Source: Saliphagus infecundisoli (GTDB lineage Archaea; Halobacteriota; Halobacteria; Halobacteriales; Natrialbaceae). Taken from it: a DNA stretch of 64,000 bases. Both the position numbers and the translations under genes were made by a program. The notes beneath the pieces are model-generated. The model did no database searches and had not been told where the DNA came from. It saw only the letters and a list, made by a program, of their open reading frames with translations. Positions 42,760-55,542 of this stretch are shown one piece after another. The stretch lies in NCBI RefSeq assembly GCF_020177375.1, contig NZ_JAIWHV010000004.1:1-64000 (forward strand). The letters are read 5' to 3'. Every line of letters begins with the position of its first letter. Position 1 is the first letter of the stretch.

Positions 42760-44680
42760 TCACTCCCCGGTGCGCGGACTCGTCGTCCGGAGCCAGACGG
42801 CCATCTCGCCGGGTTCGCGCTCGTCCCACGCGTAGTAGGGGACCGCGGTGATCGGCTTCCGGACCCGCTCGGTCGGCGCCTCGCGGTAGAGTTCGCCCTC
42901 CCATCCCCCCATCTCCGGCACGCTCGCGTCGGCCTCGACGGCCACGACGCCGCCGAGGAGGTCGGGCCGGTAGTCGGGGTCGAACGTCGTCTCTCCGTCG
43001 AGGACGTACTGCGAGAGCGGCCGGTCGTGGTCCGCGCCCTCGAGACAGTAGACCAGCGGCCCGCGGGCGAGCGCGACCCGGCCGGCGTCCGCTTCGACCG
43101 CGGGGTGGGCCTCAAGCCGGCGAACGGGCTGATCGAAGACGATTTCGACGGTCTCTCCGGACCACTCCCGGTCGATCTCGGCGTAGCCCGTCCCCTCGAC
43201 TCCCACGGGCTCGCCGTCGACCGCGACCTCGACCTCCCGACACCAGCCGGGGACCCGGACGGCGAGGGTGAAGGCGGTCGGTTCGGCCGTCTCCACCGCC
43301 AGGGTCACCTCGTCCTCCCAGGGGTAGTTCGTTCGCTGAGTCACGGTCACGTCGCGTCCCCCGATGTCGGTCTCGAGTTCGCTGCCGACGAACTGGTTGA
43401 CGTACACCGTCCGGTCGGCGGTCGCGTAGAGGTAGTCCTCGAGGGAGCCAAACAGCCGCGCGAGGTTCGGCGGACAGCAGGCACACTCGAACCACCCCTC
43501 GCGGTGGTGGTCACCCGCGCTCTCGAGGCGGTTGTCGTAGAAGAACTCGGTGCCGTCGAGCGAGATCCCCGCGAGGACGGCGTTGTACAGCGTCCGCTCG
43601 ATCAGATCCTGATACTTCGCCTCGCCCGTCAGTTCGAACAGTCGGTGGTTCCAGAAGACGCTCCCGATCGCCGCACAGGTCTCGGCGTAGGCCGTGTCGT
43701 TCGGCAGGTCGTAGTCGTCGGTAAAGCGCTCACCCTCCCGGCTGGAGCCGATCCCGCCCGTGACGTAGGTGCGTTTGTGGGCCATGTTCTCCCAGAGTGC
43801 CTCGAGATGGGCGAGATACTCCTCGTTCCCGGTTTCTGCGACCACGTCGGCGACCTCCGTGAGGAAGTACGTCGCGCGGACCGCGTGGCCCTCGACGGCC
43901 ACCTGGTCTAGGAACGGGGCGTGGGCCTGGGCGTAGCTGCCGTCGTAGGCGCCGTCCTCGTAGAACACGTCCCGCGCGTCGGTCGCGATCCCCGCCTCGT
44001 AGCCCGCGATCTCCTCGATGGTCTCGAACTCCTCCTCGAACCGCCCGCGGCCTCGTTGCTCGACGAAGTACTCAGAGAGGTCGACGTACCGCTGCTCGCC
44101 CGTGACCCGGGCAAGGGAGACGAGCGCGAGTTCGATTCCCTCGTGGCCAGGCGGCCCCTCGACCTCGTCGCCGAACGTCGAATCGACGTGGTCGGCGAGC
44201 CGTATCGCGACCGCCAGGAACTCCCGGGAGCCCGTCGCGCGGTGGTGGGCGACCGCAGCCTCGATCAGGTGGCCCGCACAGTAGAGCTCGTGCATCGTGT
44301 TGAGGTTGGTCCACCGCTTGTCAGGGACTTCCAGGGCGAAGTAGGTGTTCAGGTAGCCGTCGTCGTCCTGGGCGTCGGCGACCAGCCCGACACAGTCCTC
44401 GACCCGTCGCGCTAGGTCGGGGTCGTCCTCGCTCGCCAGGACGTAGCTCGCGGCTTCGATCCACTTGTAGAGGTCCGAGTCGGCGAACCACATCCCTCGA
44501 ACCCGCCCGCTTCGCCGGCGGCCGCCCGCCGGAAGTTCTCGAGACAACCCGTCTCTACGAGCTGGTCGTACTGGTACTGATGGTCCGCTCGCGATTGGTC
44601 TCGAGACGGGGGGTCCAGAACGGATCGTCGATCGTCACGGCCGGGAGCGCCGGCACCGTCGGTCCGGAAGCGTCTGCCAT
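42760..44680 (-). pseudogene. GH127 beta-L-arabinofuranosidase, N-terminally frameshifted
   Basis: The barrel is clear: WFADSDLYKWIEAASY, NTMHELYCAGHL and the catalytic Cys region CACCPPN, all typical of GH127 (former DUF1680) enzymes that remove beta-L-arabinofuranose. The natural start is at ATG 44680 (ALPAVTIDDPFWTPRLETNRERTI). The frame shifts at about 44578 and again just before 44493; each shift is consistent with loss of one G. Translation from 44547 alone would yield a 595-residue protein without the proper N-terminus. It is either a recent pseudogene or carries two sequence errors. Confidence 0.8.
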
Positions 44681-44745: not shown

Positions 44746-45888
44746 TCAGGTGGCTTCCTCGGTCCGTGGGGCAGCCTCGCGTTCGCGTTCGCGCTCGACC
44801 AGCAGGTTCTCGCCGGTCCGGCGGTCGAAGAGGTGGATGTCGTCGGGGGCGAACGTGATCTCGACCCGGTCGCCGACCGACGGCTTGATCGCGCCGCTCA
44901 CCCTGACACAACACTCCTGACCCTCGATGTCGAGGTAGACGAAGTTGTCGCTGCCCGCGACCTCGACGACGTCGACGGTCGCGGCGATCGCGTTCTCGCC
45001 GCCCCCGAGGGTGATGTCCTCGGGACGGATCCCGAGTTCGAGGTCGTCGGCCCCGCGAGCCGTCTCCGCGATCGAGGCCGGGAGCCCGTAAGTGAAGCCG
45101 TCGCCGACGAGCCGGGAGCCCTCGAGACTGACGTCGAAGAAGTTCATCGAGGGGCTCCCGATGAAGTCGGCGACGAACCGGTTTGCCGGGTTGTCGTAGA
45201 TCTCCTCGGGGGTCGCGAACTGCTGGAGTTCGCCCGCGTTCAGCACGACGATCCGGTCGCTCATCGTCAGCGCCTCGTGTTGGTCGTGGGTGACGTAGAT
45301 CGTCGTCGTCCCCAACTCCTCCTGGAGCCGTTGGAGCTCCGTGCGCATGTGGACCTTGAGCTTCGCGTCGAGGTTCGAGAGGGGTTCGTCCATCAGGAAG
45401 ATCTTCGGGTCCCGGACGATCGCCCGCCCGGTCGCGACGCGCTGTTGTTGGCCCCCCGAGAGCTCGCTCGGCTTGCTGTCTAACTGGTCGCCGATCCCCA
45501 TCATCTCAGCGGTCTCCTCGACGCTCCGGTCGATCTCGTCGTCGGACATGTCGGTCGTCAGCTTCAGGCCGTAGGACATGTTCTTCCGGACGCTCATGTG
45601 GGGGTAGAGCGCGTAGTTCTGGAACACCATCGCGATCCCCCGGTCCTGGGGTTCGACCCCCTTGATGCTCCGATCGCCGATCCGGATGTCGCCGCCGGTG
45701 ATCGACTCGAGGCCGGCGACCATCCGCAACAGCGTCGACTTCCCCGATCCCGAGGGGCCGACGATGGTGATTAACTCGCCGTCCTCGATGTAGGCGTCGA
45801 AGCCGTCGATCGCGACGAAGTCGTCGCTGTAGACCTTCCGGACGTTCTCGAACGTTACGGACGCCGTCTCGTTGGTACTGTTGCTCAT
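44746..45888 (-). CDS. Sugar ABC transporter ATPase (MalK/UgpC type)
   Basis: 380 residues. Walker A is GPSGSGKST, the signature is LSGGQQQR, Walker B is IFLMDEP and the H-loop is THDQHEA. The C-terminal 140 residues are TOBE-type regulatory beta domains (LELGIRPEDI). It energises the two permeases encoded just upstream. The ATG at 45888 gives a family-length protein; an upstream extension is not conserved-looking. Confidence 0.9.
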   Translation of the reverse strand: MSNSTNETASVTFENVRKVYSDDFVAIDGFDAYIEDGELITIVGPSGSGKSTLLRMVAGLESITGGDIRIGDRSIKGVEPQDRGIAMVFQNYALYPHMSVRKNMSYGLKLTTDMSDDEIDRSVEETAEMMGIGDQLDSKPSELSGGQQQRVATGRAIVRDPKIFLMDEPLSNLDAKLKVHMRTELQRLQEELGTTTIYVTHDQHEALTMSDRIVVLNAGELQQFATPEEIYDNPANRFVADFIGSPSMNFFDVSLEGSRLVGDGFTYGLPASIAETARGADDLELGIRPEDITLGGGENAIAATVDVVEVAGSDNFVYLDIEGQECCVRVSGAIKPSVGDRVEITFAPDDIHLFDRRTGENLLVEREREREAAPRTEEAT

Positions 45889-45976
45889 TGTCGTGTCTCC
45901 GTCTGATTCCGCCTGCACTGGCGCTGGTTCGCCCGCGTTCGGGGAGTCCATGCGTGGCCGCTCGTCCGATCGCCGG

Positions 45977-46609
45977 TCACTGTCGGACACCTCCCTCGAG
46001 GGAGTCGGTCCCGGAGACCGTCGCGACGAACTCGACGTGGAGCGCGCCGGCAACGCCCGCGAACAGCAGGGCCACGGCGACCATCAGGACCGACGTGAAC
46101 GCGAACAGCGCGACGGTTACGGTGCCGAGTGCGGCCGCGCCGACCGCGTGCCGGGCCGTCCAGAGGTAGCCCTCCCGGACGGCGACGGTCGGCGACTTTC
46201 CTTCGGCCAGTCCGAGCAGCGTCGGGATCGAGACGAGCCAGGCGTAGAGCCCGACGTAGCCACAGCCGAGCGCGAGCAGGCCCGCCGCGACCGTCCCGCT
46301 CGCGAGGTAGGCGAGCGCGTAGTTCGCCGCGAGCGCGACCAACACGACCGGGACGAGTCCCAGCAGCGTCGCGTGGACGAACTGGCTCCGGACGGTCGCG
46401 AGGACCGTCGACCGGTCGACGCGGCCGTTCTCGCGAAGCGATAGGACGGCGCGGTAGGCGCCGACCGTCGCCGGGCCGATCGTGACGACCGGGAGGACCG
46501 CGAGGAACCAGCCGACGCTGATCGCGACCACCGCGGGGAGGTTCTCCCAGGTCAGGCGGGTCGTCCGCCGGAGGGAGGCGTACATCGGGTCGAGTTCCGC
46601 CCCCGTCAT
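45977..46609 (-). CDS. YesL-like (DUF624) membrane protein
   Basis: 210 residues with about five to six transmembrane helices, among them AVVAISVGWFLAVLPVVTIG and ALFAFTSVLMVAVALLFAG. YesL-type proteins are found within bacterial carbohydrate ABC operons, often for pectin or oligosaccharides, with unknown function. The start overlaps the stop of the preceding permease by four bases, so it belongs to the same operon. Confidence 0.7.
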   Translation of the reverse strand: MTGAELDPMYASLRRTTRLTWENLPAVVAISVGWFLAVLPVVTIGPATVGAYRAVLSLRENGRVDRSTVLATVRSQFVHATLLGLVPVVLVALAANYALAYLASGTVAAGLLALGCGYVGLYAWLVSIPTLLGLAEGKSPTVAVREGYLWTARHAVGAAALGTVTVALFAFTSVLMVAVALLFAGVAGALHVEFVATVSGTDSLEGGVRQ

Positions 46610-47475
46610 TTGGTCGTCCCCTGCATTTCGACCGCCTGGACGAGCTGTTTTTGCATCACCAGAAAGACCAGGAGCAACGGTACCGACGCGATGACCGCCG
46701 AGGTCATGATGACGCCGGGCTCGGTGACCCCGAGGTTGTCCTGGAGGGTCACCAGCCCGATCGGGAGCGTGTACATCGTCTCGCGCTGGAAGATCAGCAG
46801 CGGCCAGACGAAGGAGTTCCACGTCCAGATGAAGATGAACAGCCCGAGTGCCGCAAGCGGCGAACGCATCAGCGGCAGGACGATGTGGCTGAACACCCGC
46901 AGACGCGAGAACCCGTCGAGGCGTGCTGCCTCCTCGAGTTCCTCGGGGATGTCCTTGAAGAACTGGACGAGCATGAAGACCCCCAGCGGGTTGGCGGCGC
47001 TGGGAAGCACCACGCCCCACACCGAGTTGACCAGCCCGAGTTCGCTCGCGATGATGTAGACCGGGACGAGGTTGATGATCCCCGGCACCATGAAGCTGGC
47101 CACGATGACCCCGAAGATGACCCGGCGGCCGGGCCACTCGAGGCGGGTCAGCGAGTAGGCGATCATCGCGTCGACGACGATGACGAACAGCGTCGTGATC
47201 CCCGCCAGGATGAGCGTGTTGACCGTCCACATCCCGATCAGGGAGTTGTCGATCAGGTACTGGTACCAGTAGGTCGTCACCTCCCAGGGGATCAGGTAGG
47301 GCGTTTCCGAGTAGACCAGCTCGCGAGTCATAAAGGACGTCGCGAACATGTACCAGTAGGGGATCAAGAACAGCGCGGCCGTTCCGTATAGACCGACGTA
47401 CAGCGCGATCGTCCGCAGCCGGGTGTTCGTAAGCGAGACGCCGTCGAGCAGGCCGCCGCGTGTATCGGTACTCAT
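46606..47475 (-). CDS. Sugar ABC transporter permease (MalG type)
   Basis: 289 residues with six transmembrane helices. The cytoplasmic EAA loop that docks on the ATPase is EAARLDGFSRLRVFSHIVLP. It begins four bases before the end of the preceding permease gene. Confidence 0.9.
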   Translation of the reverse strand: MSTDTRGGLLDGVSLTNTRLRTIALYVGLYGTAALFLIPYWYMFATSFMTRELVYSETPYLIPWEVTTYWYQYLIDNSLIGMWTVNTLILAGITTLFVIVVDAMIAYSLTRLEWPGRRVIFGVIVASFMVPGIINLVPVYIIASELGLVNSVWGVVLPSAANPLGVFMLVQFFKDIPEELEEAARLDGFSRLRVFSHIVLPLMRSPLAALGLFIFIWTWNSFVWPLLIFQRETMYTLPIGLVTLQDNLGVTEPGVIMTSAVIASVPLLLVFLVMQKQLVQAVEMQGTTK

Positions 47476-48377
47476 CGTCTATCACCCGCGAGGAAGTAGT
47501 AGTTGGTCGCCGAGATGGCGATCAGGATCATGAAGAGGACGTAGCCGACGGCGGCGGCGTAGCCGAACTGCCGGCTGGTAAAGGCCGTCTCGTACAGGTA
47601 GAGGACGACCGTCGTCGTCGAGCTGGAGGGGCCCCCGTCGGTCATGATGTAGGGCTGGCCGAACACCTGAAAGGAGCCGACGAACGTCACGATCACGACG
47701 AACACTAACGGATTTCGCATCTGCGGGATCGTGATGTCGCGCATCATCCGCCAGGTGCTCGCGCCGTCGAGTTTCGCCGCCTCGTACAGCCGGTCGGAGA
47801 CGTTCTGGCGTGCGGCCAGCAGGATGATGAAGTTGAAGGCGAGTTGCCACCAGACCGTCGCGATGGCGATCGCGGGCATCGCGAGATCGTAGGAGGTCAG
47901 CCAGTTGCCGCCGCCGATGTAGTAGGCGACGAGCCCCGAGGCGTTGAAGATCTCCGTCCAGAGCAGGCCGACGACGGCGACCGTCAGCACGTACGGGCTG
48001 AAGAAGATCGTCCGCAACAGCCACTTGCCCCGCACGTCGCGGTTGACCCCGAGGGCCAGAAGCAGGGAGCCGACAATGATCGGCGGCACCGTGAGCACGA
48101 CGAAGTAGACGGTGTTTCGCAGCGCCGTCCAGAAGTCGGGGTCCCCGACCAGCGTCCGGTAGTTCTCGAGGCCGACGAACTGCGACTGGGCCGGGGCGAG
48201 GGCGTTCCAGTCGTGGACGCTCATGTAGAGTGCAATCGCGAGCGGACCGAACAGGAACAGGAGCGCGGTCACCAGATACGGGATCGCGAACGTCGTTCCC
48301 GCGATCCACTCCCGGGTCGCAGACCGGGTGAGGTCGATGCGTCCCGACTCCTCGTTCGATTGGGTTGATCCTGCCAT
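47472..48377 (-). CDS. Sugar ABC transporter permease (MalF type)
   Basis: 301 residues with six transmembrane helices and the EAA loop EAAKLDGASTWRMMRDITIP. It lies two bases after the binding-protein gene and overlaps the next permease. Together they form the membrane channel for an oligosaccharide importer. Confidence 0.9.
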   Translation of the reverse strand: MAGSTQSNEESGRIDLTRSATREWIAGTTFAIPYLVTALLFLFGPLAIALYMSVHDWNALAPAQSQFVGLENYRTLVGDPDFWTALRNTVYFVVLTVPPIIVGSLLLALGVNRDVRGKWLLRTIFFSPYVLTVAVVGLLWTEIFNASGLVAYYIGGGNWLTSYDLAMPAIAIATVWWQLAFNFIILLAARQNVSDRLYEAAKLDGASTWRMMRDITIPQMRNPLVFVVIVTFVGSFQVFGQPYIMTDGGPSSSTTTVVLYLYETAFTSRQFGYAAAVGYVLFMILIAISATNYYFLAGDRR

Positions 48378-48379
48378 AG

Positions 48380-49687
48380 TTACTGATCGAACGTCCTCCT
48401 GACGCCCGTCGTGGCCGTCTCGATGGCCTCCTCGGGCGTGATGTTGCCCGTTCGCATGTCGTCTAAGGGCTGGTAGATCGCCTCCATGTACTCCTGGACG
48501 TTCGGCGTCGCGGGCGGACGGATGTACTGTCCGGAGTCGACCATCCCGTAGAACGTCTCGAGGGTCTTATCCCAGGTGTCCGAGTCGCGGAGTTGGTCGC
48601 TCTCGATGGCCGCCTGGCTCGCCGGGAGGTGGCCGGCGTCGTACCCCCACCTGGCGTTGAACTCCTGGGTGAGCAGCCGGATGAACTCGATCGCGTCCTC
48701 GAGTCCTTCCTGGCCGCGTTCCTCGCTCTCGGGGATGATCAGCATGTGGCTGTCCCCGACCGTCACGGGGTCGTCGGCGCCGGGCATGACGAACGGCTCG
48801 GCCATGCCGAACTCGAACCCGGCCTCGCGGACGACGCTGATGTGCCACGTGCCCTCGATCTTCATCCCGACCTCGCCCCGGTTCCAGGCGTTCCAGCCGG
48901 TGTCGGGATCGGTGGGTGCCCACTCGTGTTCGTGGACCCAGTCGTACATCTCCTGGACGACGGCCCTCCCGCTTTCGGTGTCGATGGCGGGCTCGTACTC
49001 CTCGGTGATGAGCTGGCCGCCGAGCCCGTGTACCATCATCCGCATCGTCTCGGCGCCGTTTACTCCCCCCGGGTAGTCAAAGGCCCAGTAGTCGGTGTTC
49101 TCGGCGATGGTGCGTGCGGCCTCGGCGAAGCGTTCGGGCGTGTTCGGCGGCTCCTCCGGATCGAGCCCGACCTCCTCGAAGATCTCCTTGTTGTAGTAGA
49201 GTCCGAACGGGTGCGTATCGAGGGGGACGGCGAGCTGTTCGCCGTCGACGACCCCGCCCTGGGCGAGCTCCTCGAGGTAGGGGTCGGTCCCGATTTCGTC
49301 GGTCACGGGGACGAGACTGTCCTGATACACCATCATCATTCGGGAGTGCATCACCGCGACGTCGGGGGGATTGCCGCCGACCATCGAGGTGTAGAGCCGG
49401 CTGTAGTGTTCGTCCCACGGGACCCGCTGGCGGTTGACCTGGAGGTCGTACTCGCCGCTTTCGTTTATCCCGTCCACCATCGACTCCATGGTTGCGCCGT
49501 CGCCGCCGCCGAACAGCGTCCAGTACTCGATTCCCTCCTGGGCGCTGCCGACGTACCCCGTACAGCCGGCGAGGCCGGCGAGGCCGGCGGCGCCGCCGGC
49601 CTGAAGGAGTCCGCGGCGGCTCACCCGGCAGCGATCGGTCGTGTCTGGGGGAAGCCCGATCCGCTCCCCGATCTCGTCCGGTGGCAT
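48380..49687 (-). CDS. Sugar-binding lipoprotein of the ABC importer
   Basis: 435 residues. The twin-arginine signal with lipobox is RRGLLQAGGAAGLAGLAGC, so it is exported folded and lipid-anchored outside. The body is a family 1 solute-binding fold (EYWTLFGGGDG, AVPLDTHPFGLYYNKEIF). It probably captures arabinose- or galactose-containing oligosaccharides, judging by the glycosidases downstream. The ATG at 49687 matches a TATA box about 28 bases upstream. Confidence 0.9.
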   Translation of the reverse strand: MPPDEIGERIGLPPDTTDRCRVSRRGLLQAGGAAGLAGLAGCTGYVGSAQEGIEYWTLFGGGDGATMESMVDGINESGEYDLQVNRQRVPWDEHYSRLYTSMVGGNPPDVAVMHSRMMMVYQDSLVPVTDEIGTDPYLEELAQGGVVDGEQLAVPLDTHPFGLYYNKEIFEEVGLDPEEPPNTPERFAEAARTIAENTDYWAFDYPGGVNGAETMRMMVHGLGGQLITEEYEPAIDTESGRAVVQEMYDWVHEHEWAPTDPDTGWNAWNRGEVGMKIEGTWHISVVREAGFEFGMAEPFVMPGADDPVTVGDSHMLIIPESEERGQEGLEDAIEFIRLLTQEFNARWGYDAGHLPASQAAIESDQLRDSDTWDKTLETFYGMVDSGQYIRPPATPNVQEYMEAIYQPLDDMRTGNITPEEAIETATTGVRRTFDQ

Positions 49688-51783: not shown

Positions 51784-53277
51784 TTACGACAGCGAGAGCG
51801 TCGCGACCGACGCTGCCGGCAGCTCGACCGTTACGGTACCTCCGTTGAGGTCGGCGTCGAGATCCGCGGGTTCGAACTCGGCGGCGTTGTCCTTGCTGAC
51901 CTCCGCCTTGGGGTCCTGGTCGCCGAAGAGGAGTTGGCCGTCGACGGCTTCGGGATCGGTTCCCTCGAGAGAGACCGTCACCGTGTGGTCCTCCCGGCAG
52001 TCGCGGTTGGTGAGGGTGACGAACGTGTCGTCGTCGCCGGTCGAGGCCGACCCGCCGACCAGCGGGAGTTCCTCGTCGTCCTCGAGTTCGCGCGAGGGGG
52101 TGTCGACGGTCGTACGGACACCCTCGTTGCCCTTGTGGGGGGCGTAGGCGTCGAAGACGTGGTAGGTCGGGCGGGCCCACGCCTCCTCGGCGTCGGTCTC
52201 GACGAGACACTGGAGGACGTTGATCGTCTGGGCAATGTTCGTCATTGTCACGACGTCGCTGTGATCGTTGAACACGTCGAGGACCACCGCCGCCGACAGG
52301 GCGTCGAGTGCGGTGCCGGGCTGTTCGAGGCCGTTCTCGGAGATGGCTTCCGTGTGCCAGGCGCCCCACTCGTCGATGATCACGCCGATGTCCCGCGTCG
52401 TCGCGACCGCGTTGATCGCGCCCGCGATCCGGGTGATGTGGTCGTCCATCTCGAGGGCGCCCGCGAGGAACGAGTCGAAATCGTCCTCGTCGGCTTCGGC
52501 GACGCTCATCGTCCGCCCGTAGTAGTGATGGAAGGTGAGGTGATCGAGCGGGAAGTCCGCACCCCACGCGGACTTCGAGACCTCCTCCAAGAACCGACGG
52601 TTCCACTCGTGGTCCTCGAACCCACACGCGATGAGCTCGAGGTCGTGATCCAACATGAGCCCCGACTGGGTGCCGACGTAGGTCGCAAAGCGGCGGTACT
52701 CGCGGGCGTACTGCTCGGGACTCATCCGGCCGCCACAGCCCCAGTTCTCGTTGCCCAGGCCCCAGTACTTCACCTCGTAGGGGTCGTCGTGGCCGTTCTC
52801 GCGCCGGCGGTCGGCGAGTTCGGTGTCGCCGTCGTAGTTGCAGTACTCGACCCAGTTCGCCGCTTCCTGGGGATCGCCCGAGCCGACGTTCGCCGCCAGA
52901 TAGGGTTCGGTGCCGACGTCCTCGCAGAACTGGAGGAACTCGTCGGTGCCGAAGGCGTTCGATTCTTCGGGAAGCTCCTCGGGACCCTGCGCCCAGAAGA
53001 GGTTGCGCCGGCGCGGGCGCTCGTCTTTGGGTCCGACGCCGTCCTCCCAGTGGTAGTCGTCGGCGAAACAGCCCCCGGGCCACCGGAGGACGGGGATCTC
53101 GAGGTCGGCGAGCAGTTCCTTGACGTCCTCGCGGACGCCCTCGCCGTCGGCCTCGTCGGCCTCCCAGATCCCCTCGTAGATACACCGCCCGAGGTGCTCC
53201 GAGAAGTGGCCGTGGGTCTCGGGGTCGATCCGTCCGATCGTCGCGTCGGTATGCACCGTGAACTCTGCGTCCGACAT
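51784..53277 (-). CDS. GH51 alpha-L-arabinofuranosidase
   Basis: 497 residues: a TIM barrel with a C-terminal beta sandwich. The acid/base is Glu177 in GLGNENWG and the nucleophile Glu303 in IIDEWGAW, with the family start GRIDPETHGHFSEHLGRCIYEG. It removes alpha-L-arabinofuranosyl groups from arabinan, arabinoxylan or arabinogalactan pieces. No signal peptide is present, so it acts on imported oligosaccharides. It is divergent from the GH93-IclR gene about 170 bases away, a natural arrangement for regulation by that protein. Confidence 0.92.
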   Translation of the reverse strand: MSDAEFTVHTDATIGRIDPETHGHFSEHLGRCIYEGIWEADEADGEGVREDVKELLADLEIPVLRWPGGCFADDYHWEDGVGPKDERPRRRNLFWAQGPEELPEESNAFGTDEFLQFCEDVGTEPYLAANVGSGDPQEAANWVEYCNYDGDTELADRRRENGHDDPYEVKYWGLGNENWGCGGRMSPEQYAREYRRFATYVGTQSGLMLDHDLELIACGFEDHEWNRRFLEEVSKSAWGADFPLDHLTFHHYYGRTMSVAEADEDDFDSFLAGALEMDDHITRIAGAINAVATTRDIGVIIDEWGAWHTEAISENGLEQPGTALDALSAAVVLDVFNDHSDVVTMTNIAQTINVLQCLVETDAEEAWARPTYHVFDAYAPHKGNEGVRTTVDTPSRELEDDEELPLVGGSASTGDDDTFVTLTNRDCREDHTVTVSLEGTDPEAVDGQLLFGDQDPKAEVSKDNAAEFEPADLDADLNGGTVTVELPAASVATLSLS

Positions 53278-53447
53278 GTGGACTACCGTTTCCCCACACC
53301 GATCATAAATGGTCGGGTTCCGGCGGGCGAGCCGCAAGGATAAGGCCGTCGGCCTCGAACCGAGGCCATGGCCCACGCACGCACGAACCGGGACGCCCGA
53401 CGGCGGTCCCCGAGGTACTCGACCGATCGGCCCCGGACGGGAGGGCG

Positions 53448-55514
53448 ATGAGCGAGGGGACGGACGCTGGCGACCGTCCCGACCGCGAGGGCGAGGTGTT
53501 GTACGGCCCGCCGGAGTGGGCGCCGGTCCCCGGCGCGATGTACCCGACGGTCGTCCGGCTCGGCCTCGACCCGGAGACGCTCCTTGCCACCTTCGAGTGC
53601 TACGAGACGACCGGGAGCGACGGGACCGAGGAGCCGTTCTTCCCGATCTACCGGAGCACCGACGGCGGCCGGACCTGGAACGAGTTCGCAGAGCTCCGCG
53701 ACACCCAGCACGGTTGGGGGCTTCGATACCAGCCGGTGCTGTTCGAAGTTCCCGAGCGCCTGGAGGCCTGGGAGACCGGAACCGTCCTCGCGGCGGGCAA
53801 CGCGATTCCGGCCGACCGCTCGGAGACGAGTATCGATCTCTACGCGAGCGAGGACGGCGGCCGGAGCTGGACCTACGTCAGTACGGTCGCTGCCGGCGGG
53901 CGGGCCGTGCCGGGTCGCGGGGAGTCGCCGGTCTGGGACCCCGAACTGGGGGTCGACGCCGACGGAAACCTCGTCTGTTACTTCTCGGACGAGCGCCACT
54001 CGGGGAAGGGCTACGACCAGCTCGTCGGCCATCGCGTCAGCGAGGACGGCGGCCGGAGCTGGGGCCCTCAGTCCATCGACGCGGCGATCGACGACGGCGA
54101 GTCCCGGCCCGGACGGCCGGTCGTCGAACGGCTGCCGACCGGAGGGTACGTCCTCGCGTTCCACGTCGACGGCCCGACCCACGGCGGCGGCGTCTTCCTG
54201 AAGACCTCGCCTAACGGACGCGATTGGGGCGAACCCGACGACCTCGGTGCCCCGGTCAGAACCGACGACGGGCTCCAGCTCAACGAGGGGCCGTACGTGA
54301 CGTGGGTGCCCGACGGCGCCGGCGGCCGGCTGGTCGCCGCGGGAAAGACCCTCCGGAACCGCCACCGGAACGCCGTCGAAGGGAGCGGGGGGGTCCTGCT
54401 CGCGACCGACGACCTCTCGGGCGAGGGGCCCTGGACACCCGTTCGGGCCCCGCTCTCGTTCGCCGACGAACTCGAGACCGGCCATCGGTCGGTCGCCTGG
54501 ACGACGCCACTCGTTCCCGTCGGCGACCATCTCTTCCAGTGTACCTCGACGTACGCAGCCCACGGCAAGACCGAGATCAGGTACGCCCGGACACCCCTAG
54601 AGACGCTCTTCGAACCCGCCGACATCGCCGGCGAGGAGCGATCGTCCGGCGCGAGCGGCCCCGCCAGTCGGCCCGACCGCGAGGGGAGGGGGTTCCCGGA
54701 GCCACCCTCCGACGAGGACGCGGAACCACACCACGTCAAGTCGATCGTGAAGACCTTCGAACTGCTCGAGGCCGTCGAACGGGAGGGGCCGATCGGCGTC
54801 ACCGAACTCGCCGGCCGGACGGGGATCGGAAAGAGCTCGGTCTACAAGTACCTCGACACGCTCCGCCACCTCGGGTTCGTGACGAACGAGGACGGGCAGT
54901 ACGCGACGTCGCTTCGATTCTTTCGGTTCGGACAGCGGGTCCTCTCGCGGTACGAGATCAACGAGATCGCCCGCCCGCGCATCGAGACCCTCGCCGAACG
55001 GATCGGCGAGACGGTGTCGCTGCTCGTCTGCGAGGCGGGTGACGCCGTCTACCTCCAGACGACGGGCGAGGGCGGCCCCGGCGGGATCGAGCCGGGCCAC
55101 CGGCTCCCGGTCCACCTCTCGACCGGCGGCAAGGCCATCCTCTCGTACCTGCCCGACGACCGCGTCGAGGGGATCCTCGAGGCGGCCGGCGCCGAGGTCG
55201 ATCGCCGGAGCCTCCGGACCGAACTGGAGCGAGCCCGGGACAACCGGGTCGTCGTCGACCGGAAGACGACGAACCGCCTGGAGTACAGCGCGGGGATGCT
55301 CGAGGGAACGCGCCACGGCACGGGCCAACAGCGTGTCGACGAACGCCTCCGCCGGGTCGCCGTCCCGATCCGGGACGGCGAGGACCGCGCGATCGCCGCG
55401 ATCGAGGTCGCCGGCCCCGAGTTCGGCGTCGACTCGCGGCGCCTCGAGGAGGACGTCGTTCCGCTGCTGGTCTCGACCGGCAAGTCGATCGAGATCGACC
55501 TCCTGAATCGGTGA
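53448..55514 (+). CDS. GH93-like beta-propeller fused to IclR transcription factor
   Basis: 688 residues in one uninterrupted frame. Residues about 15-390 form a sialidase-like propeller with four Asp-boxes (69-77, 133-141, 197-205, 252-260). The pattern MYPTVVRL, ESPVWDPEL (159-167) and LVCYFSDERHSGKGYDQLV resembles GH93 exo-arabinanases. A disordered acidic linker (about 393-428) joins an IclR winged helix (about 429-490: VKSIVKTFELLEAV, GIGKSSVYKYLDTL) and an IclR ligand domain (about 505-685, with LPVHLSTGGKAIL). No signal peptide. Inferred role: a cytoplasmic regulator whose propeller senses or processes arabino-oligosaccharides and controls the island. Catalytic activity is unproven. 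Confidence 0.88.
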   Translation: MSEGTDAGDRPDREGEVLYGPPEWAPVPGAMYPTVVRLGLDPETLLATFECYETTGSDGTEEPFFPIYRSTDGGRTWNEFAELRDTQHGWGLRYQPVLFEVPERLEAWETGTVLAAGNAIPADRSETSIDLYASEDGGRSWTYVSTVAAGGRAVPGRGESPVWDPELGVDADGNLVCYFSDERHSGKGYDQLVGHRVSEDGGRSWGPQSIDAAIDDGESRPGRPVVERLPTGGYVLAFHVDGPTHGGGVFLKTSPNGRDWGEPDDLGAPVRTDDGLQLNEGPYVTWVPDGAGGRLVAAGKTLRNRHRNAVEGSGGVLLATDDLSGEGPWTPVRAPLSFADELETGHRSVAWTTPLVPVGDHLFQCTSTYAAHGKTEIRYARTPLETLFEPADIAGEERSSGASGPASRPDREGRGFPEPPSDEDAEPHHVKSIVKTFELLEAVEREGPIGVTELAGRTGIGKSSVYKYLDTLRHLGFVTNEDGQYATSLRFFRFGQRVLSRYEINEIARPRIETLAERIGETVSLLVCEAGDAVYLQTTGEGGPGGIEPGHRLPVHLSTGGKAILSYLPDDRVEGILEAAGAEVDRRSLRTELERARDNRVVVDRKTTNRLEYSAGMLEGTRHGTGQQRVDERLRRVAVPIRDGEDRAIAAIEVAGPEFGVDSRRLEEDVVPLLVSTGKSIEIDLLNR

Positions 55515-55529
55515 TCTATCGGCTCGTAT

Positions 55530-55542
55530 CTCATTGAGAAAC
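55530..55542 (+). repeat. 13-mer direct repeat, copy 1
   Basis: CTCATTGAGAAAC, identical to 55651-55663. With the preceding T it contains the perfect 11-bp dyad TCTCATTGAGA. Confidence 0.6.

Follow-up and report, generated by a model that had tools for sequence, protein, structure and literature searches.

A GH93-type propeller fused to an IclR regulator in Natrialbaceae, a possible sensor of arabino-oligosaccharides

The typical IclR regulator is built from two domains, a helix-turn-helix (HTH) and an effector domain (PMC11519228). In a stretch of 64,000 nucleotides from Saliphagus infecundisoli (assembly GCF_020177375.1, contig NZ_JAIWHV010000004.1, positions 1 to 64,000), which we call the window, an enzyme-like domain seemed to stand in front of these two, and the locus was originally predicted, from its letters alone, to encode either an enzyme-derived sensor that reads arabino-oligosaccharides directly or a trigger enzyme that destroys its own inducer. 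Here, we ask whether the fusion is real, whether its propeller can still be an enzyme, and what the propeller may do in a regulator.

The fused gene and its distribution

The gene and its parts are as follows:

53448..55514 (+): fused gene, GH93-like propeller, linker and IclR regulator, 688 aa (open frame and homology)
53496..54605 (+): GH93-type six-bladed propeller, residues ~17-386 (phmmer and predicted structure comparison)
54606..54728 (+): linker, varying in length and sequence between genomes, with neither a stop nor an in-frame start codon
54741..54887 (+): IclR winged helix-turn-helix, residues 432-480 (Pfam HTH_IclR, 7e-11)
54936..55511 (+): IclR C-terminal effector domain, from residue 497 (Pfam IclR_C, 3e-14)

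The frame runs uninterrupted from ATG to stop over 688 codons. Since long spurious frames occur in this GC-rich genome (for example, one 768-aa frame with an IclR match has a front part that runs antisense to a different gene), homology is the decisive test for a fusion. In phmmer searches against solved structures, residues 17-304 matched the Penicillium exo-arabinanase 3a71 (E 1e-54), the front half matched the Fusarium GH93 enzyme Arb93A (2w5n, E 7e-47), and the back half matched IclR proteins; in Pfam, BNR_2, HTH_IclR and IclR_C were all found within the single 688-aa protein. The IclR regulator is complete and occupies residues ~428-688 (PF09339, 42 bits at a cut-off of 22; PF01614, 53 bits at a cut-off of 24), and TIGR02431 aligned at residues 428-682 with a score under the model's own cut-off. 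The single intact frame that had been claimed is thus borne out by phmmer and Pfam on both halves and by five other genomes. Spurious read-through of GC-rich DNA was ruled out, since both halves are homologous in one frame in six genomes, and so were two genes with an internal start, since the linker of the window gene contains 0 stops and 0 in-frame ATG, GTG or TTG codons. Across the fused proteins the linker is weakly conserved.

We surveyed 125 genomes of Natrialbaceae and 392 genomes drawn from the order. The propeller is encoded in 12 of the 125, fused to IclR in six and as a separate gene in the others. The six fused genomes span four genera, and their frames of 723-765 codons include the IclR half; the five besides the window, from three more genera, have open frames of 694-704 aa. 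Propeller matches outside Natrialbaceae lie in frames of 188-536 codons, with no IclR half in those sequences inspected. Two of the fused genes, WP_013875845.1 (701 aa) of Halopiger xanaduensis SH-6 and WP_247004427.1 of Halosolutus gelatinilyticus, lie on complete replicons, where each is annotated as one CDS and described only as a 'helix-turn-helix domain-containing protein', and this conservation in complete genomes excludes a sequencing error between the halves, which had been raised as a possible source of the fusion.

Each half also has relatives encoded alone. Stand-alone IclR relatives, 45-61% identical over the IclR half, start right at the HTH (MGPPKHHVKSV, MSGTSHHVKSV) and lie beside GH2, GH51 and ABC genes. 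About 6 kb separate a stand-alone relative of the fused IclR from an intact stand-alone GH93 gene in one genome (L053/L080), an arrangement that could resemble the pre-fusion state. No stand-alone GH93 gene was found in the fused genomes. In phylogenetic trees, the six fused propellers form one clade (support 100/100), as do the six fused IclR halves (support 100/99), and the branching within both clades is identical, which argues for one fusion followed by joint descent. Homologues in two separate genes, named at the outset as a challenge to the fusion, do exist, but they fall outside the well-supported fused clade. Taken together, these results show that the GH93-IclR fusion is genuine.

Fold, catalytic residues and selection in the propeller

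The original prediction counted four Asp boxes in the propeller; we find three full boxes and a partial one (residues 70-77, 134-141, 198-205 and 254-260). In an AlphaFold model of the whole protein, built with four sequences, the propeller was good (block means mostly 70-95) and the IclR half was poor (pLDDT mostly <50). The propeller model matched 3a71 with a Z of 38.5 and an rmsd of 2.6 over 324 residues, and 2w5o with a Z likewise of ~38, whereas sialidases scored far below the GH93 structures (Z ~26); the top Foldseek matches were 2ydt, 2w5n and 3a71 (TMt 0.77-0.79). Inspection of the N-terminus revealed no hydrophobic segment, in line with the signal peptide having been called absent.

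The catalytic residues of GH93 are E170, E242 and Y337 (PMC11813348). Our comparison covers E170 and E242, the alignments to the fungal chains stopping before Y337, and at a constant alignment offset of 14 these two positions correspond to:

53937..53939 (+): residue 164, acid/base Glu position (Arb93A E170), Asp in the window by alignment
54162..54164 (+): residue 239, nucleophile Glu position (Arb93A E242), His in the window by alignment

Across the six fused proteins, the E170 position holds D, A, A, A, V and V, and the E242 position holds H, F, F, F, Y and Y. Both Glu residues are retained in all 19 stand-alone haloarchaeal propellers compared, in a Chloroflexota relative and in both fungal enzymes, and a broken stand-alone GH93 copy (L039, 5098-6419) has both on its first fragment. 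Because the fused set is one clade, the loss in all six members counts as a single evolutionary event. Of the 100 columns that do not vary among the 19 stand-alone propellers, 78 are kept without exception by the six fused proteins, and only four (the catalytic pair, N280 and T287) are lost throughout the fused set. By our own arithmetic, the chance that both catalytic columns would be among four random losses out of 100 is ~0.001. The two sites kept varying within the clade (D/A/V and H/F/Y) while the rest held, a pattern of release from catalysis. By sequence, then, the propeller has the homology and the six-bladed fold of GH93 and lacks both the acid/base and the nucleophile Glu, and it looks like a catalytically dead enzyme.

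Loss of catalysis need not mean loss of binding, since PDB 2ydp, the E242A mutant of Arb93A, contains a bound iminosugar, so a GH93 protein lacking the nucleophile is still able to bind a ligand. Of the 62 columns common to the stand-alone and fungal enzymes, 49 have not changed in any fused protein, and these include aromatic and Arg residues adjoining the lost catalytic pair. Around the pocket, whose absence had been named as a challenge to the prediction, the conserved framework is largely kept. Some fused proteins differ at further conserved positions (R34 is T in the window alone, five have R for Q191 and three have T for R220), which could mean another ligand or a partial loss of the pocket. 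In pairwise comparisons of the propeller, dN is far below dS (for example, 0.031 vs 0.222 and 0.079 vs 0.705). In the wider comparisons, identity is higher in the propeller than in the IclR half (70 vs 61% between the window and the fused locus L029, and 75 vs 71%); in the two closest pairs the propeller is slightly the less conserved of the two. By these substitution patterns, the remainder of the propeller is under purifying selection roughly as strong as that on the regulator half, and the domain is retained rather than decaying.

The arabinan island and the proposed receptor

The neighbours of the fused gene that bear on its function are:

51784..53277 (-): GH51-type alpha-L-arabinofuranosidase, divergent to the fused gene (Pfam Alpha-L-AF_C, 1e-34)
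42760..44547 (-): GH127 beta-L-arabinofuranosidase (Pfam PF07944, 7e-100)
44746..49687 (-): sugar ABC importer (MalK-type ATPase, two permeases, solute-binding protein)

Besides GH51, GH127 and the importer, the island of the window contains GH4, two GH2, and SDR and zinc dehydrogenase genes, and most relatives are surrounded by similar gene sets. The importer was recognised from the Pfam matches of its ATPase (with TOBE/MalK domains) and solute-binding protein and from permease orthologues in related islands. The GH51 gene lies divergent to the fused gene as described. The fused gene had been noted as the only regulator candidate in the window island, and no second IclR gene was seen there; other fused islands have a second, ordinary IclR gene nearby. 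Arabinan is a growth substrate of some haloarchaea, including Halobacterium hubeiense isolates (PMC9726719). A stand-alone GH93 gene is present and intact in H. hubeiense.

Several observations concern the stand-alone relatives. At L034, L035, L037 and L039, the island carries two GH93 paralogues, one with a twin-arginine or lipoprotein-like N-terminus and the other without an obvious signal, which suggests an exo-arabinanase outside and another inside the cell. The broken copy at L039 consists of two overlapping frames with an apparent frameshift, and the same island has an intact paralogue. Two nearly identical IclR genes (L075 and L079; genome G095, contig C2), with GH2 and ABC genes alongside, are apparently a recent duplication. 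A GH93 protein of Dictyobacter kobayashii (Chloroflexota; L028:5635-7569), its catalytic pair intact, has an extra C-terminal domain.

A 17-bp palindrome, GTTTCT-N5-AGAAAC, accompanies the IclR subfamily of the fused gene, whose stand-alone relatives are nearly identical to it around the recognition helix in the alignment. Shared inverted repeats were sought in 34 promoter regions of regulator-bearing loci; TTTCT-N5-AGAAA turned up in 5 of them, and no shuffle gave more than 2. When as many as two mismatches are allowed, GTTTCT-N5-AGAAAC occurs at every locus with this IclR subfamily and at only 2 of 15 loci that have a stand-alone GH93 gene but no such regulator. In the held-out loci L075-L080, it lies directly 5' of the IclR gene, mostly ~-50 to -34 from the start codon. 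In a whole-genome scan allowing one mismatch, the palindrome was only modestly above the control in several genomes. A weight matrix made without the window sites was used to scan the last 34 kb of the window and 20 shuffles, which gave two candidate sites:

55526..55542 (no strand assigned): candidate operator GTATCTCATTGAGAAAC, 26.0 bits (best shuffle 11.4), just past the stop codon
55647..55663 (no strand assigned): second candidate operator GTCCCTCATTGAGAAAC, 16.6 bits (best shuffle 11.4)

These two best sites of the window are 3' of the fused gene, not 5' of GH51 or the importer; they lie where the fused gene and an SDR gene face each other with their 3' ends, without an evident promoter, and at L073 the candidate operators are likewise behind the IclR gene. 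The pair separates the fused gene from GH2 in L029-L031, and GH2 from the dehydrogenase gene in L032-L033. The window sites are spaced 121 bp apart and seven other loci have pairs at 122-124 bp, a near-constant spacing that would suit a tetramer gripping two sites.

On the other side of the gene, a 27-codon frame (MAHART...; 53368-53451) overlaps the ATG of the fused gene with its TGA. Of the five other fused loci, four have a similar overlapping frame. Such frames also precede several stand-alone genes for cytoplasmic GH93 proteins, with none before the stand-alone IclR genes inspected, and a conserved AATAAGG-like element lies ~30 bases 5' of the short frame. A translated leader peptide was considered and rejected: the substitutions in the frame are not biased by codon position, which makes selection on an encoded peptide improbable, and the frame may be due to chance.

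We propose, with a probability of about 0.6, that the protein is an IclR regulator in which a catalytically dead GH93 propeller, descended from an enzyme that releases arabinobiose, is kept as the ligand-binding domain and main sensor. This reading draws on the conserved fusion, the catalytic loss, the purifying selection and the location in an arabinan island, all of them read from sequence, and a GH93-derived propeller placed before a whole IclR protein in an arabinan/arabinofuranoside island lends support to the first of the two alternatives of the original prediction, the enzyme-derived sensor. In the proposed mechanism, short arabino-oligosaccharides, most likely arabinobiose, would be imported by the ABC transporter and would bind in the propeller pocket, where they would stay uncut. 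Binding would alter the state of an IclR dimer or tetramer on the GTTTCT-N5-AGAAAC palindromes, and this change would switch the arabinan genes; the IclR effector domain might retain an input of its own or act mainly in oligomerisation. We infer the arabino-oligosaccharide ligand, its binding, the signalling to the IclR half and the activation of the island. By analogy, activation seems more likely than repression, because the characterised haloarchaeal sugar IclR regulators XacR, GacR, RhcR and MscR are described as activators (PMC11519228). A fuller statement, to which we give even odds, is that a regulator acquired a glycoside hydrolase in one fusion, and that this hydrolase lost its catalytic residues and now serves as a cytoplasmic receptor that reads intact arabino-oligosaccharides directly, in place of sensing by the IclR effector domain.

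Other explanations were weighed against the receptor reading. One variant of it, which we consider rather unlikely, is that the protein integrates two inputs, the propeller sensing an oligosaccharide and the IclR effector domain a small ligand of its own, such as arabinose or a catabolite. IclR_C is indeed retained, being recognisable in all fused proteins tested with dN below dS, but at residue 636, which aligns to a conserved Cys in 1mkm, all six fused proteins have Arg and the stand-alone relatives have Ser, and several residues conserved in those relatives are lost from the C-terminal part of the fused IclR. The conserved Cys of the IclR ligand pocket is not common to all IclR members; the Arg at this position hints that the effector domain's own pocket was changed at the fusion. 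Less probable still is a propeller that binds no sugar and serves only for oligomerisation, stability or protein contacts. The alteration of both catalytic residues and of some further conserved ones would fit such a scaffold, but the shared columns that stayed intact in all six proteins and the persistence of the gene in an arabinan island argue against it.

The trigger enzyme, in which an active exo-arabinanase propeller would remove the inducer while the IclR half controls transcription, appears very improbable, and this alternative of the original prediction was not upheld. It could draw on the GH93 homology over the whole domain and on the Asp, a related acid, at the acid/base position in the window; however, none of the six fused proteins has the nucleophile Glu, its place being taken by His, Phe or Tyr, five have Ala or Val as the acid/base residue, and all stand-alone relatives compared keep both. 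A sequencing or assembly error that joined two separate genes has a negligible chance, for relatives do carry each half as a gene of its own, but the fusion recurs in six genomes and as one CDS in complete replicons, and the window linker has no in-frame start.

Comparison with known systems

Our search of the open-licence literature found no description of a regulator, IclR or other, fused to a glycoside hydrolase or gluconolactonase, in agreement with the statement that no example had been described. The fused protein shares the six-bladed propeller and most invariant residues with Arb93A of Fusarium graminearum, Abnx of Penicillium chrysogenum and the stand-alone haloarchaeal GH93 proteins. 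In contrast to these GH93 exo-1,5-alpha-L-arabinanases, it has both catalytic Glu residues replaced, carries a DNA-binding regulator and lacks a signal peptide. Like XacR, GacR, RhcR and MscR, it has an IclR winged HTH and effector domain, and its gene sits in a sugar catabolic island, but it adds ~420 residues of propeller and linker before the HTH of a haloarchaeal sugar IclR protein. Its stand-alone IclR relatives (L073-L080) have the same palindrome nearby but start directly before the HTH, without a propeller.

The anti-sigma factors RsgI of Clostridium thermocellum have glycoside-hydrolase or carbohydrate-binding sensor domains. The likeness is that a domain resembling a polysaccharide enzyme senses for the expression of polysaccharide-degrading genes. 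RsgI sensing is reviewed in PMC12203970. RsgI differs in being membrane-bound, in sensing outside the cell and in signalling through a sigma factor, and we do not claim homology.

If our main reading holds, the fused protein would be an intracellular receptor that binds arabino-oligosaccharides directly, whereas monosaccharides or phosphorylated products are the signal for many sugar regulators. It would suggest a modular design for oligosaccharide biosensors in haloarchaea, and it would offer a clean natural case of an enzyme turned sensor, with relatives of both parents, the fused descendants and the exact lost residues visible in living species. The reuse of an enzyme fold as a gene-control sensor is familiar from the ROK repressors NagC and Mlc, from Gal80 and Gal3, and from BlaR1, but these have other folds and belong to other families, and we know of none among them that pairs a glycoside-hydrolase propeller with an IclR HTH. 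If the receptor reading is true, no earlier transcription factor whose receptor derives from GH93 is known to us.
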